The position numbers and the translations under genes are program-made. The notes beneath the pieces are model-generated. The model was given only the letters and a program-made list of their open reading frames with translations. It was not told the origin of the DNA and ran no database searches. From positions 1 through 19,777 of the forward strand of contig CADBQC010000019.1 of the NCBI GenBank assembly GCA_902796745.1: a DNA stretch of 19,777 nt, in the 5' to 3' direction. This DNA comes from an uncultured Pseudomonadota bacterium (GTDB taxonomy: Bacteria; Pseudomonadota; Alphaproteobacteria; RUG11792). Positions 1,591-16,205 of the stretch are shown here, piece by piece. Each line of letters opens with the position of its first letter. Position 1 is the first letter of the stretch.

Positions 1591-2478
1591 ATGATATCTA
1601 GAAAGATCTGTATATTTGGAATAACCTTGTTGTGTGCAGGAGCGGATGCCATAAAAGTAAATGATTACAGCATTACGCATTACTAATGATCCTAAGCTGA
1701 ATAAGCTATATGAATATAGGACTATGGCATCTGAAATTTTGTTGTAGCATTATAACGCACACATGGCCAAGGTTAGGATGAAAAATAAGTCCCATTTAAC
1801 TAGGTGGAGTAATGGGAAATACAATAAATCAGTTTATGATTTACACCCAACACCGCAATAGCTCGTTGCTTTTTCAAAATCACGAGCGACGTGGTGACAT
1901 ATAACCAGTTTGATGGAAAAATGATCGAATGTGTTGGTACTGATCCTTCACGATATACCAGTACAAATTGGTACTGTGTCTTCTTGGTCAATCTAATAGA
2001 CGAATTTATGGCGAATATAATAAATGTTTTCCATGATAGTGTGTACAAAACACTTTTTGTTCAAGCCCTAAATGACAAAAAAACAGTAATACTTGAAGCT
2101 GAGAAAAACAATTGATACATGTGTAATTATGCCATATATAAAAAATATATAGAAGAAGCTTATAGTGATATTACAAAATATTGTTCTCAATTGCAGTTAT
2201 CTGATTACTTAATAGAACTGATGCAAGCAAGGTTCAAACGTGTAGACATAAAATATAGCTAAATAAACAATAGAGTTGCCGAACAAAAACAATACAAAGA
2301 TTTCGTACAAACGAACGAAGAAGGACAAAAGGGCATGATGAACAACACATGGATGAGAACGGTATTAAGTCTGAATGGGGCGCAATTCATAGACTACACA
2401 AAAAGAATATTAGAAGACAATACCAAGAAGCTCGAGTTAGTCAATGCGGTATTCCTAACCAATTATGGAATAAAGTAA
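1591..2478 (+). pseudogene. Degraded gene for a secreted protein of unknown family
   Basis: Starting at ATG 1591, the first 31 codons encode a signal peptide (basic SRK, then ICIFGITLLCAGADA) and stop at 1684-1686. The coding frame then appears to shift by +1 (residues NDPKLNKLYEYRTMASEILL; TAG at 1745-1747 and 1859-1861). It shifts back between 1840 and 1858 and runs in the first frame to TAA at 2476-2478, broken by TGA 2113-2115 and TAA 2260-2262. The last part is lysine- and asparagine-rich with no motif I recognise. The final 26 nt lie inside the left inverted repeat of the IS1 remnant, so the insertion probably cut the gene's 3' end. I infer one original secreted protein of at least 290 residues. 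The frameshift reconstruction is my reading and not proven. The longest surviving piece (1891-2115) has only a GTG start. Confidence 0.5.
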
Positions 2479-3370: not shown

Positions 3371-4048
3371 TTAGTGAGTTGGTTGTACCGTCTTCGATCT
3401 TCTCAAACTTGGCAACTTTGGAAGTTTCTTTTTCAGATTTGAGAATTTATTTTTGATACCTGTAAAAATCTGACCAGCTTGCTTTTGAATGTTTTCTTTC
3501 ATCTTAGCTGCTTTGAGTTTAAAACGTGTTGATGATATCTGTTTGTCTATGTTTTTCATCTGCGCTTTTTGTTTAGCTTCTGCTTGATTTAATTGATTCC
3601 GCAACATTTTTATTTGCTGTTCGTTTTCAGCAAGGCTTTGCGCCCTTTGAAGTTCCAGCATTTTTTCTTGCTGTTGCAAATTAGCTGAATTACTGAGTTT
3701 TTGTGACATACTTCTTCTTAGTTGCGCATTTTCTTGTGCTAAACGTTGTTGTCCTGCTTGAAGTTGTTGTTGTATTTGCTGAGATTGCAAAGTTTTTTGG
3801 ATAGCATTGCCAGTATTCTGCACTCCTTGCATAATGTTATTCAAATCTTTTTGAGACACATTATTCATTGGTATGCCATTTGACGCAGTATTGCTTTTCG
3901 AAGTTGCATTGTTCCTGGAATGAAACCATCCTTTGATTTTTCCAAAGCAATACCCATCACTTGCAGAAAGGGCGAGCACCAGCAATATACTCACACATCC
4001 TCCTATGGAACTTATTCTCTTCATAGCTACAAACCATACTTTAATCAT
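3371..4048 (-). CDS. Secreted glutamine-rich coiled-coil protein, unknown family
   Basis: The 225-residue protein has an export signal (MKRISSIGG then CVSILLVLALSASDGYC) and a mature part that is mostly charged and helical. Residues about 70-175 are rich in Gln, Leu, Lys and Ala with heptad-like spacing, so a long coiled coil is likely. The last 50 residues are strongly basic (KNKFSNLKKKLPKLPSLRR). No catalytic motif is visible and I do not recognise the family. The start could be the ATG at 4048 or, better for the signal peptide, the ATG at 4024 (residue 9). A TATAAA box at 4062-4067 on this strand would leave too short a leader for the upstream ATG, which also favours 4024. It is divergent from recG and has its own terminator. 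Function unknown; a structural or surface role is only a guess. Confidence 0.85.
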   Translation of the reverse strand: MIKVWFVAMKRISSIGGCVSILLVLALSASDGYCFGKIKGWFHSRNNATSKSNTASNGIPMNNVSQKDLNNIMQGVQNTGNAIQKTLQSQQIQQQLQAGQQRLAQENAQLRRSMSQKLSNSANLQQQEKMLELQRAQSLAENEQQIKMLRNQLNQAEAKQKAQMKNIDKQISSTRFKLKAAKMKENIQKQAGQIFTGIKNKFSNLKKKLPKLPSLRRSKTVQPTH

Positions 4049-6822: not shown

Positions 6823-8082
6823 ATGTTTGCAAAATTTTGTATCTTTTTATTTATGTTTTGCATTTCTTCAGTTTTTGGTAGCGTGCCAAATCTAGATTTT
6901 CAAGTGAATCGTAATATTTCGTTATTTTATCAAACTTATTTCGAAAATTTAATGGATGAGGAATACAAGAATTTACGTGAAGAACTAGAAAGCGCATTTG
7001 CAGAAAATGAAGTAGATGCTCAAATGAAAGAAGATTTCATTATAGATTTGTCCAAAATAAAACATTTAAAATACCGGCATAAATTTATGACGCCGACCTT
7101 TATGTCTTTATGGGATAAAGCTTGCGAAAAATATGATAGGCAATTTGATAATGATATGGAGATTTTAAACAACAGAAAATTAGAATTAAAACAGTATTCT
7201 AATGAAGTTTTTGGTAAAAAGGCGTTAAATTTTGCTCCAGTTTTTAACTTTTATGACAGTAAAATAGATAAACATGATAAATTCAGGGTATTTATATGTT
7301 CATCACAAAACAATATGCAAAGTTTTGCTCGAGCATTTGGCACTAATGTTGTTTTAAAATTTAATTATGCGCATCACGTTGCAGATACTTGCGCGGTATT
7401 AGAACAAATTTGCTGTTCTTTATTCTCTGCAATGAATTCGAACACTCGAGCATTGCTTAAAAATTATTTTTACGAACACAAATCACAAAACGCCTATGCT
7501 TCTTACAATCTTTTGAATGAAGTTCTTGCATATAGCATAGGCAAATTATGGGCTTTCGAAAAATTACCAGAACCAAAGGATTCTTCAGTTGATAGTGCCA
7601 CAGATGACAAAATAGCGGAAATAGCAAAGGCTATCTTGCCCACTGTAAAAAAATATCTTAAAGATAATAAAAAAATTGATATCAAATTTATAGAAGAATA
7701 TATAAAACAGGTTGATTTACACTATCCGAAAGCATATCAGAATTATAAAATTACAATGCGGAGTATTTCTCTGATTGTCGAAAATGGAATAGATTATACA
7801 GAATGTCAAAAAATCATCAAAACGAGATTTGGTACTAGAGAAGTGATAAGCGAACCTGGAAGTTTTACAACAGTTTTTATAGGTAAGAATTTGGGGCATC
7901 CAGCACTAAACGGACTACAGGATAAACTTCCGAAGCAAAACGCAGATTATATGTTTATCAAATTGCATAAGGGAAAATTATTTTTTGTATTTAATACGAA
8001 CGATCTCAAAAAAGTAAAACAAGGGCTGAACAAATTAACCGAACAGCCACCACTATCTGGAGGCATCACTTTTAATTTGTAA
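6823..8082 (+). CDS. Secreted protein of unknown family, possible zincin-like fold
   Basis: The 419-residue protein begins with a signal peptide (MFAKFCIFLFMFCISSVFG, cleavage near residue 20). The mature protein is lysine- and asparagine-rich with no transmembrane segment. I do not recognise the family. Residues about 160-250 have the layout of a small zinc-metalloprotease core: a beta-strand-like stretch (FRVFICSS), a second strand (NVVLKFNYA), a helix starting HHVAD where an HExxH helix would sit, then a helix with LNEVLAYSIGKLW. The HExxH motif itself is missing, so if the fold is right the protein is not a normal zinc protease. That is inference from layout only. ATG 6823 follows a modest Shine-Dalgarno (tgtgag). 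It stands alone upstream of the HEPN/MNT pair, 84 nt away. Secretion suggests an envelope or host-directed role. Confidence 0.85.
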   Translation: MFAKFCIFLFMFCISSVFGSVPNLDFQVNRNISLFYQTYFENLMDEEYKNLREELESAFAENEVDAQMKEDFIIDLSKIKHLKYRHKFMTPTFMSLWDKACEKYDRQFDNDMEILNNRKLELKQYSNEVFGKKALNFAPVFNFYDSKIDKHDKFRVFICSSQNNMQSFARAFGTNVVLKFNYAHHVADTCAVLEQICCSLFSAMNSNTRALLKNYFYEHKSQNAYASYNLLNEVLAYSIGKLWAFEKLPEPKDSSVDSATDDKIAEIAKAILPTVKKYLKDNKKIDIKFIEEYIKQVDLHYPKAYQNYKITMRSISLIVENGIDYTECQKIIKTRFGTREVISEPGSFTTVFIGKNLGHPALNGLQDKLPKQNADYMFIKLHKGKLFFVFNTNDLKKVKQGLNKLTEQPPLSGGITFNL

Positions 8083-8166: not shown

Positions 8167-8586
8167 ATGCAAAGTAAAATCAATACGGAGTATCTGGATA
8201 AATGTCTTCAAACGCTACAAAAGTCGTATGAGATGATAAAGCAAGCTAATCAAAATACCGTTGAATATGAAATGTATAGGAATTCTCTAGTAAAAAGTTT
8301 TGAAATGACGTTAGAACAATGCGGTAAACTTTTGAAAAAGAAAATTTTGCCATTCTTTGCATCAAAGAGAGAAGTTGATAAGCTAACATTTAAGGACGTT
8401 TTTAGGCACGCATTTAAACATTCACTAATAGACGAACCAGCCGTTGTTAGATGGATGAAGTACAGAGATAATAGAAACAATACATCACACGACTACGGGC
8501 AAGAGTTTGCAGATGAGACATTGTCTCTCATTGAGAGTTTTATATGCGATGCACAGAAGCTGAAAATAATTATTGAAAATGCTTGA
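8167..8586 (+). CDS. HEPN-fold toxin, nucleotidyltransferase substrate-binding (HI0074-like)
   Basis: A 139-residue all-helical protein of the NTase_sub_bind (HI0074) type. Typical segments are KSFEMTLEQCGKLLKK (about 44-59), the stretch FKDVFRHAFKHSLIDE, then WMKYRDNRNNTSHDYG. The last contains the RX4HXY motif of HEPN toxins: Arg103, His108, Tyr110. In characterised HEPN/MNT pairs the HEPN protein is an RNase toxin and the partner MNT enzyme silences it by adding AMP to the tyrosine of this motif. That mechanism is family knowledge, not shown here. The gene overlaps its MNT partner by 8 nt, so the two are translated together. Start ATG 8167 has only a weak Shine-Dalgarno (gaaag). Confidence 0.88.
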   Translation: MQSKINTEYLDKCLQTLQKSYEMIKQANQNTVEYEMYRNSLVKSFEMTLEQCGKLLKKKILPFFASKREVDKLTFKDVFRHAFKHSLIDEPAVVRWMKYRDNRNNTSHDYGQEFADETLSLIESFICDAQKLKIIIENA

Positions 8587-8881
8587 TTTAAACACAAAAT
8601 ACATTTCAATCCTGAATCAAATTTTTGATACTTATTGTAAAAATGCTGAAATTTGGGCTTATGGTAGCAGAGTAAACGGAGATTGCCACAACGGTAGTGA
8701 CCTTGACCTTGTAGTAGTAAGTTATAACGAACCTGGCAAAAATTTAAGTGAGCTGAAGCGGTTAATCAACGAAAGCGACATTCCAATTTTAGTAGATATA
8801 TCTGAATTCGATGCATTACCGAAATCATTTCAGAACGAGATACAAAGAAATAAAATAATAATTTATGGAAATCCTACATAA
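8579..8881 (+). CDS. MNT-type minimal nucleotidyltransferase antitoxin
   Basis: A 100-residue minimal nucleotidyltransferase of the HI0073/MNT type. Its GSX10DXD active-site motif is exact: Gly29-Ser30 in YGSRVNG and Asp41-x-Asp43 in SDLDLVVV. A further acidic residue, Asp in ILVDISEFD, fits the third metal ligand. In HEPN/MNT (type VII) toxin-antitoxin modules this enzyme AMPylates and neutralises the HEPN toxin encoded just upstream. I chose ATG 8579, which gives an ATGCTTGA overlap with the end of the HEPN gene. A TTG two codons earlier (8573) is possible but unnecessary. Both catalytic motifs are intact, so the pair is probably functional, or was until recently. Confidence 0.9.
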   Translation: MLDLNTKYISILNQIFDTYCKNAEIWAYGSRVNGDCHNGSDLDLVVVSYNEPGKNLSELKRLINESDIPILVDISEFDALPKSFQNEIQRNKIIIYGNPT

Positions 8882-13274: not shown

Positions 13275-16205
13275 TCACGAAATTTGCTCGTAGAATATAA
13301 CTGTTGGAGCTTTAGCCATTTCTGTTGTTGAGTTATATAATTCCTGAGCGTTGGAAGCTGTTACATCTCTGCTCACATCGTTTATAGTGCTAAATCCTTG
13401 ATTTGTTAGCATTACAGGCTTATAGTGACCAGCAGTTGAGACAACTCCAGATACAAATGAATTTAGACGATATGTCTTCCGACCTTGTTCGTCTTGTAGA
13501 TAAATTATTTTAGGTAAATTCATATCGTTCAATTGAAGCTTTTCTAGCCCTGTTATCTTACTTCCTTCATATGCGTATACCAACACTTGAGGTAGCTGTT
13601 TGACAGAAATACCAGAATTCTTCAAAGAATTAAAATATGTGTTATTGAAGTCGGGCAACGATTTTATGTTGTGGGGCATCATAATCCTCCCATAACGTTC
13701 ATGTCCAAGAGCTATACCCAAAGATTTATTGCGTTGATCAGCATTGGAAAAACTGGATTCATCCATTGGTTGAATCTGTAAGGGAATACCATATGTCGCT
13801 CCTGTTGGAGGCTGTACTCCACAATTTGCCATCTGTTCTTGCAGAGGGTATAATATATCAAGTATGAAGGTCACTGCAGAATATCCGTCTTGCCTTTTAT
13901 CAACTTGGACATAAAAATCATTTAATAGATGGTCACGGGCTGGGTTAACAGTATTCTTAAAGTTATTCAGTGCCGCTTTGTAGAGTTCACTCCATGGTTT
14001 CGCTACTCCATTTTTATTCTCTATGTCAACTGAATCATACACCCTTGCATCGAAAATTACTTGGTAGTTCATTAAAGCGTCATATAGTTCCCTTACGGCT
14101 TCGTCATATTTCATCGCAGCTTGCAGCGAAACATTCGGAGCCTGTGAAAGAGTATATGCCATAGAGCCATCTCGACAAGCTGTTAGAAATTTGAACATCG
14201 CAGATATCAAGTGCGCATCAGGCGTTTTGTTTTTTGGTTGATTGTTGAAGCTTTGCTGTACAGCTGAATATATTAAATTCAGATTTGCTAGACACTGCAT
14301 AGTAGAGTTAAAATAGCACTTATTGACGGTGGTTTGTATGGTTCCATCTTCATTATAAAAACTATGTGTCAAATTATGTATTTCGTTCATGTTTCGTAGT
14401 GTTGGTACTGCATTTATTGATGTGAGCGCCTTCATTTGTCTAGACACCCCTACCCACCATCTAGGCGTACCTATGTTCGTTGCCCTCTTCATTGTCATTT
14501 GGTTCGGCATGTTCATGTTCACGAAGTTGTTCATGCTCATTGGCATATTTTGTGGAGGATTTTGATGGAAGTTATTGTTCTGGTTCATCCCCATGTTGTT
14601 CCGATTATTCCCGAAATTCGCATTCTGCATATTATTGTTTGGAACAAATCTATTGTTCATTTGAAACTGTCCCTGGAAGTTGTTGTTCTGGTTATTCATT
14701 CCAATGTTCGACCTTTGATTTAAATTCTGGAAAGTCATATTATACATATTATTATTTTGAACCAATTTCTGGTTCATTTGAGATCGTACCTGGAAGTTAT
14801 TCATGTTGTTGTTCATGCCCATCCCTATATTTTGTTGTGGATTTTGGGAGAAGTTGTTTTGAGTAGGCCCGAAATTCCGATTGTTGTTCTGGTTATTCAT
14901 CCTCATGTTCTGCGCTTGGAAGTTGTTCATACCCCCCACCGCATTCTGTGGTCTGCCGCTGTTCATCCCCACATTCTGCGCTCTGTTATTCATGTTATTG
15001 CTTGTATTCTGGTTAAGTACTTGGTTTACTCTTGATTTATTACTACTCTTTTGGTTGAGTTTGTCGTACTCAGCCTTCGACATATGTTTATTGTATCCGG
15101 TATTAGTCGGCATATTCATCTTATACGAATTTTCACTGATAATGTCATTCTTAACTTCATTCTTAATTTCATTCTTTGCTTTTTCCTGAACTGCATAGAA
15201 TTTATCACTATATTGTTGGTACAAATCTTGACCAATTGTTTCGGAAGATGCCGTGTCATTATCTACTACGTACATTGTGTGGATGTCTAGGGAGTCCATC
15301 TGCATCGTCGTATCTGTTCTCGTCACAATGAATTTCCCACAGTAACGCCCTACCTGACCTCTTCCACCAGGAATCTTATGATATTTTCCACCTACTGGAA
15401 TGAGCACCCGCGGAGGCATAAATTGACCTACATCTTTATTGTTGCGTGATTTTTCTAGGTCTGCTAGGTAATCATCTAGTCCTAACTCATTTACGTATCT
15501 CTTTATATCCTGTCCAGCTAGTTCTATTAGTTTGACAGCACTCTCTTGTTGTTCTCGCGGCACAAAGTTCGCTATGTATTCCTTGGTAGCATTGCGCACA
15601 ATGTGATCTATTATCCAATTCACCCTATTTTGTTTGTCAAAGGCTACAGCTTCACCTGTATAATTTAATGTATAATTTAAATAGTTATACAGCACAAACG
15701 CATTCCAGTTTTCTCTGGTATAATTCACATCTTTCGGGGAGACGCCGAATGTTACAAAGTGGTCGCTAAAGTATTGCCACTCCACCAAATATTGATTTTC
15801 TTTGTGAGTATCTTGCTTAACTTGGTCAATTTTTGGTTGATGCGTATCCCAGAACTTTTCAAACTCATTTCTCTTCTGGAAGCAATCAGCTATCGCTTTG
15901 GATATTACATTTAAAATCGAATCGTGATAGAAACCTTTTTTATAATCTTTTGCTATAAATTTTCCGAAATTTTCTGGATTTTCCATCTCCTCCAAAGCTT
16001 TTGCTTGCCAACTTTTTGTGATCATAAAGTGTTCAAAACCTTTTATACCTCTGTAAGGAAGCCTCTCTACATTTACAGAACGATTCGACGCACTGACCGG
16101 CTCAACCAAAACGGCCAAAGCCCCAGCAAGACACAACATTTTCATACTAGAATTCATAAAACATAAACTCATTAACGCATCACCACTACTAATAGTATAT
16201 CGCAT
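13275..16205 (-). CDS. Secreted USP-like (C19) deubiquitinase with N/M/Q-rich linker
   Basis: A 976-residue exported protein. A signal peptide (core MLCLAGALAVLVEPVSA) probably ends at residue 39. Later starts at residue 12 or 17 (ATG 16172 or 16157) would give a more normal signal length. Residues about 40-380 form a lysine- and tyrosine-rich domain I do not recognise. Residues about 386-571 are an Asn/Met/Gln-rich linker. From about residue 600 on, the order of a USP protease is seen: Cys box NKCYFNSTMQCLANL with nucleophile Cys630, Gln/Asp box RQDGYSAVTFILDIL (Gln772), a segment LPQVLVYAYEG then LPKIIYL, and the His box YRLNSFVSGVVSTAGHYKPV with His927. Asp943 in STINDVSRDV fits the third catalytic residue. 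In USPs this triad cleaves ubiquitin from lysines. Bacteria have no ubiquitin of this kind, so I infer a host-directed effector. The enzyme activity and its route out of the cell are not shown. Confidence 0.85.
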   Translation of the reverse strand: MRYTISSGDALMSLCFMNSSMKMLCLAGALAVLVEPVSASNRSVNVERLPYRGIKGFEHFMITKSWQAKALEEMENPENFGKFIAKDYKKGFYHDSILNVISKAIADCFQKRNEFEKFWDTHQPKIDQVKQDTHKENQYLVEWQYFSDHFVTFGVSPKDVNYTRENWNAFVLYNYLNYTLNYTGEAVAFDKQNRVNWIIDHIVRNATKEYIANFVPREQQESAVKLIELAGQDIKRYVNELGLDDYLADLEKSRNNKDVGQFMPPRVLIPVGGKYHKIPGGRGQVGRYCGKFIVTRTDTTMQMDSLDIHTMYVVDNDTASSETIGQDLYQQYSDKFYAVQEKAKNEIKNEVKNDIISENSYKMNMPTNTGYNKHMSKAEYDKLNQKSSNKSRVNQVLNQNTSNNMNNRAQNVGMNSGRPQNAVGGMNNFQAQNMRMNNQNNNRNFGPTQNNFSQNPQQNIGMGMNNNMNNFQVRSQMNQKLVQNNNMYNMTFQNLNQRSNIGMNNQNNNFQGQFQMNNRFVPNNNMQNANFGNNRNNMGMNQNNNFHQNPPQNMPMSMNNFVNMNMPNQMTMKRATNIGTPRWWVGVSRQMKALTSINAVPTLRNMNEIHNLTHSFYNEDGTIQTTVNKCYFNSTMQCLANLNLIYSAVQQSFNNQPKNKTPDAHLISAMFKFLTACRDGSMAYTLSQAPNVSLQAAMKYDEAVRELYDALMNYQVIFDARVYDSVDIENKNGVAKPWSELYKAALNNFKNTVNPARDHLLNDFYVQVDKRQDGYSAVTFILDILYPLQEQMANCGVQPPTGATYGIPLQIQPMDESSFSNADQRNKSLGIALGHERYGRIMMPHNIKSLPDFNNTYFNSLKNSGISVKQLPQVLVYAYEGSKITGLEKLQLNDMNLPKIIYLQDEQGRKTYRLNSFVSGVVSTAGHYKPVMLTNQGFSTINDVSRDVTASNAQELYNSTTEMAKAPTVIFYEQIS
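14490..15050 (-). repeat. Degenerate Asn/Met/Gln-rich repeat tract within the USP-like gene
   Basis: Codes for residues about 386-571 of the USP-like protein. It is made of loosely repeated units around MNNQNNN, FQNPxQN and NNMGMN, mostly Asn, Met, Gln, Phe and Pro with few charges. The DNA shows many near-copies of gttgttcat, gttattcat and ctggtt on the plus strand. The units differ too much to be recent copies. The same low complexity makes long but meaningless cysteine/serine-rich frames on the other strand. Confidence 0.75.

Follow-up and report, generated by a model that had tools for sequence, protein, structure and literature searches.

The window analyzed here, a stretch of 19,777 nucleotides (contig CADBQC010000019.1) from an uncultured alphaproteobacterium, carries on its reverse strand a gene for a USP-like protein (13275..16205, −; 976 aa from an ATG, as read from the open reading frame (ORF)) that joins a probable export signal to a C-terminal catalytic domain of the USP/UCH type. 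This protein is probably exported and probably a USP-family cysteine isopeptidase, with which a host-associated alphaproteobacterium would strip ubiquitin, or a relative ending in Gly-Gly, from the proteins of eukaryotic cells, perhaps those of a gut protist. An effector that edits host ubiquitin, as proposed in a sequence-only reading of the gene, is what we infer to be the best reading, and the eukaryotic origin also raised there is plausible from what is known of the family.

The profile, the fold comparison and the sequence all give good support to placing it among the USPs. In the UCH profile search that the earlier reading called for, residues 591-976 (13278..14435, −) match PF00443 at 35.6 bits against a cut-off of 23.9 (E 1e-8), over profile positions 6-254 of 254, and the motifs KCYFNSTMQCL (with Cys630), LPQVL (871) and GHYKP (with His927) are present in the order seen in USPs. 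A Cys in an N-terminal box precedes a His in a C-terminal box, with an Asp/Asn third residue by alignment, and the predicted model has the Thumb and Palm of the USP fold. Fold matches are to USP30, USP46, USP12, USP1 and USP7, with 12-17% identity among the matches listed. The UCH domain of one relative (L029) lies above the cut-off at 30.4 bits, that of another (L030) just under it (23.4 versus 23.9), and full-length P0003 has no UCH match; a tree places these three with the window domain in a divergent four-member clade on long branches (support 100/99). On these tests the protein is a USP, yet it stands outside the zinc-Fingers subtype, and its N-terminal domain sets it apart from the TssM family.

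Cys and His are the only invariant columns in an alignment of 19 UCH domains (A1), being kept in 19/19 rows; in the window they are Cys630 (14316..14318, −), the predicted nucleophile, and His927 (13425..13427, −), the predicted general base. The predicted third catalytic residue is Asn942 (13380..13382, −), which occupies the USP Asp/Asn column in both four-row and ten-row alignments and follows His927 by 15 residues, a TssM-like spacing. Asp943, which had been put forward as the third member of the triad, is most likely off by one: across the subfamily's four members the Asp/Asn column reads N, N, N and D, and position 943 reads D, S, D and D, the Ser belonging to P0003. Directly after His927 stands an aromatic residue, Tyr928, at the gatekeeper position of deubiquitinases, whose aromatic motif is described in PMC7391069. 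The two CxxC pairs of zinc Fingers are missing, no CxxC pair being found in the window domain, L029 or L030; at least two pairs occur in 14/19 rows of A1 and one pair in 2/19. The Fingers part of the model of this domain has a predicted local distance difference test score (pLDDT) below 50 and is unreliable. Lacking zinc-type cysteines, the domain may hold ubiquitin in its own way, by analogy with the fingerless TssM.

Upstream of the catalytic domain the protein has the layout of an exported, modular polypeptide. The export signal claimed at the outset is well supported by the sequence: residues 17-39 (MNSSMKMLCLAGALAVLVEPVSA; 16089..16157, −), read by eye, form a probable Sec signal peptide with a hydrophobic core and a V-S-A end. 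The translation start actually used is probably Met17 (nt 16157, −), because FMN...KMLCLA is common to L030 and L034 from Met17 on. Next comes an all-helical module (residues 64-250; 15456..16016, −) common to many paralogues, recovered at 117.7 bits by a leave-one-out hidden Markov model. Its AlphaFold2 model (pLDDT 78.8, predicted template modeling score (pTM) 0.80) has nine helices and lacks strands longer than two residues, and no clear match to this predicted fold was found in the PDB. A hydrophobic stretch likewise precedes the module in 19/29 module ORFs of other loci with enough sequence, as against 0/33 interior control stretches. An intermediate stretch separates the module from an Asn/Gln/Met-rich linker (residues 345-590; 14436..15173, −), which has 73 Asn, 28 Gln and 26 Met in 246 residues. 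The alleles P0001 and P0002 are identical in their catalytic part (341/341 of the last aligned columns), match at only 160/200 of columns 101-300 and have linkers that differ through insertions; an identical catalytic part beside a diverged module and linker could stem from selection on the module, from recombination or from chimeric assembly.

The module, on which the sequence-only reading of the gene is silent, belongs to a large paralogous family, with 23 matches in the genome of origin (this gene included) and at least 40 in one relative, and its combination with a USP domain recurs in several genomes. Within the window, positions 1855..2217 (+) hold a degenerate relic of the module in a broken frame (A5 match, E 7.1e-11, with one TGA and further stops around it), which by its sequence appears to be a decayed copy of another family member. 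L012 (genome G058), from a different family of the class, has a classical USP; the region ahead of it matches the module weakly (17.6 bits) and is possibly a distant relative of the module.

Many genes of the module family also carry poly-G tracts. Of 88 module genes, 40 have a run of at least 6 G within 210 bases ahead of the module, as against 0/55 control stretches taken past the module, each 200-216 bases long (Fisher P 6e-11). The set comprised 88 distinct genes from six genomes, each with the module's first part and at least 150 bases upstream; excluded were seven whose upstream sequence was short, four duplicate rows, and any match missing the module's first 30 positions. By genome, the runs occur in 9/16 (G000), 9/20 (G001), 4/15 (G002), 10/20 (G003), 8/13 (G008) and 0/4 (G018) genes. 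They are 6-16 G long, with examples in the genome of origin at L067, L068, L070, L072, L073 and L074 and others at L117, L118, L150, L154, L161, L087, L090 and L092, among further loci. For 32 tracts of the window's genus, a simple rule for choosing the ATG gives one that shares the module's frame in 15 cases and one that does not in 14, with no ATG in the other 3; the run begins 24 bases past the ATG in 13/29. The USP-bearing gene at L081 has such a run; the window gene has none before its module, and a single G6 in its linker (14932-14937). From their sequence, the tracts suggest a phase-variable gene family, with lengths taken from assembled metagenomes. None of the searches made turned up a description of this helical-module/poly-G family.

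USP domains are concentrated in this lineage. At E≤0.01, PF00443 matches 18/96 genomes, namely 17/35 of the bacterium's own family (its genome included) and 1/61 from the class's other families; at E≤1e-4 it matches 17/35 genomes of this small alphaproteobacterial order, 16 of them above the cut-off. Among 398 genomes sampled evenly across the phylum, the genome of origin alone matches (0/397 others). The rarity of bacterial USPs asserted beforehand is borne out for the phylum sample and fails for this order. Identifiable members of the family include metagenome-assembled genomes from goat and roe deer rumen and one titled Holosporales. The most matches per genome, nine, occur in G023 within about 0.8 Mb. 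Two single open frames of that genome, of 1366 aa (G023:C15) and 1720 aa (G023:C7), hold two and three USP domains. A scan of named genomes yielded ten USP loci, from goat rumen RGIG3458, roe deer rumen RGIG4847, RUG11420 (titled uncultured proteobacterium), three Holosporales/Holosporaceae, and one each of Dependentiae, Deltaproteobacteria, Cardinium and Cytophagaceae.

Several known proteins share parts of this design. TssM of Burkholderia is described as a type II-secreted USP effector without Fingers, with His442 and Asp457 (PMC10719079), and, going by that description, the likeness lies in a USP-type catalytic domain in a bacterial protein, a non-catalytic N-terminal domain with a flexible linker, and a spacing of 15 between His and the third residue in both. 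TssM carries an immunoglobulin-like domain where the window protein has the all-helical module, its third residue is Asp rather than the Asn predicted here, and it lacks Fingers, which the window domain may or may not have, given no CxxC pair and a low-scoring model of that region. Simkania, an intracellular bacterium, has three USP-type deubiquitinases, SnUSP1-3, which react with ubiquitin-propargylamide in a Cys-dependent manner (PMC10643670); several USP-type proteins per bacterium is a feature shared with the present family, whereas SnUSP1-3 are described as large with hydrophobic regions, and the term 'signal peptide' is absent from the main text of that paper. Further predicted USPs come from Amoebophilus, Cardinium (L054) and Dependentiae (L050), a set of bacteria with symbionts of protists and of insects among its members; Amoebophilus is reported to have two per genome (PMC8831229), against up to nine matches in this family. 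The eukaryotic USP30, USP46, USP12, USP1 and USP7 are alike in predicted fold and in the order of catalytic motifs; the window subfamily differs in having no CxxC pair in the three members checked and no Asn five residues before the catalytic Cys, which is discussed below.

The proposed mechanism would begin with the Sec signal peptide, taking the protein to the periplasm, from where its passage through the outer membrane would probably fall to a secretin-based, type-II-like system. Of 21 family genomes examined, 18 have a secretin gene, the genome of origin included; there (L104, G000:C5) GspE lies upstream of it, and VirB4 was found in 0/21. Judging from these genes, Sec followed by a type-II-like step would be the simplest route, and type VI secretion is a possible alternative; the corresponding region of G003 (L105) has an IcmF gene. 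Outside the cell, the helical module would serve as a delivery, anchoring or host-binding part common to many proteins of the lineage, and the Asn-rich linker as a flexible tether for the protease. The USP domain would then cleave through Cys630, His927 and Asn942, residues identified by alignment, with Tyr928 restricting substrates to Gly-Gly ends.

A number of observations weigh against an active, host-directed deubiquitinase. The full 976-aa protein has no UCH match at E≤10, probably because of the Asn/Gln-rich linker, and a six-frame search of its genome recovers UCH profile positions 6-59 only, at 22.3 bits, below the cut-off of 23.9. The model of the USP domain is middling (mean pLDDT 54.6, pTM 0.58, domain residues 158-252 below 50); seven of its ten input alignment rows are classical USPs that may steer the fold, the Foldseek comparison with USP1 gives low template modeling scores (0.35/0.39, root-mean-square deviation 13.8), and a search with the A4 profile scores three AnkX chains almost as high as the USPs (E 0.028-0.035). 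The Gln/Asp box named in the sequence-only reading does have a lookalike in the window, RQDGYSAV from 771, and is unconserved across the subfamily, which keeps GYS and not QD. An Asn five residues before the catalytic Cys, which we take to be the oxyanion residue, is present in 14/15 other readable rows of A1 (the exception is L017, with Trp; L026 is too short to read) and absent from the window subfamily, whose four members have T, T, T and I at this position (Thr625 in the window protein). As to export, the T6SS (type VI secretion system) genes VasE/TssK and DotU/TssL adjoin the secretin on its downstream side, and no GspF was found in the 77%-complete genome of origin, though it is present in 32/35 genomes. 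No host has been identified for this genome, and the available text of a 2018 study of rumen ciliates (PMC6079354) does not name this bacterial group and mentions neither Holospora nor Rickettsia.

The departures in the active site, together with the missing CxxC pairs in three members checked and the separate long-branch clade, would fit a USP fold with changed or lost chemistry, binding ubiquitin or a ubiquitin-like protein uncut or acting on another modifier. We regard this as unlikely, yet as the strongest of the alternatives. The Cys, the His, the aromatic residue after it and the D/N position are kept in 4/4 members at 29-41% identity to the window, and lost chemistry is less favored because a dead enzyme need not keep them.

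Another alternative, in which the exported protease works in the bacterial envelope or against other bacteria and has no ubiquitin target in a host, would fit the unassigned function of the large module family and the lack of a known host for the genome. It is improbable given that ubiquitin is a eukaryotic substrate, that the classical USP domains of relatives bear zinc-type cysteine pairs in most rows of A1, and that the phylum sample holds no USP match elsewhere.

The gene is flanked by tsaD (+) on one side and by a dicarboxylate symporter gene, then rmuC (+), on the other, and the contig also carries holC, nusB, lptD, recG and dapA; with these neighbors, the gene therefore lies on a bacterial chromosome. 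USPs are mainly a eukaryotic family and protists are present in rumen samples, but mis-binned host or dietary DNA is a negligible prospect for a gene set between tsaD and the symporter on one contig, with a bacterial-looking signal peptide, a module common to many bacterial genes and a module-USP combination found in several genomes. The source genome is very small and of the same genus as G001 and G004. Elsewhere in the window, overlapping genes at 8167-8586 and 8573-8881 (+) encode NTase_sub_bind/HepT-like and Pol-beta nucleotidyltransferase proteins, possibly a toxin-antitoxin-like pair. Two further ORFs have no family match above cut-off, one of 419 aa at 6823-8082 (+) and one of 225 aa at 3371-4048 (−), the latter with many weak hits of coiled-coil type.

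The new elements of this apparently exported USP-family protein are its lineage, its USP subfamily, and a module that has a large family of paralogues. In that subfamily neither CxxC pairs (three members checked) nor the usual Asn ahead of the Cys is found, so that it tests the minimal needs of a USP. Together, the helical module and the poly-G tracts suggest a large family of effector-like proteins. More tentatively, and with a little less than an even chance of being right, rumen alphaproteobacteria and their relatives within this family may run a lineage-specific, partly phase-variable system of secreted effectors, in which one new helical module, with dozens of copies per roughly one-megabase genome, is joined to changing payloads including USP-type deubiquitinases, and poly-G tracts near the signal peptides switch members on and off. 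On this reading the bacteria would live inside gut protists as genuine symbionts or parasites and would have to control host ubiquitin. The 2018 ciliate study found alphaproteobacteria nearly exclusive to the ciliate-associated fraction of two monocultures and noted a lack of reports of endosymbionts in ruminal ciliates (PMC6079354). The predicted exported ubiquitin proteases of rumen alphaproteobacteria offer a genomic handle on the question of ruminal-ciliate endosymbionts.
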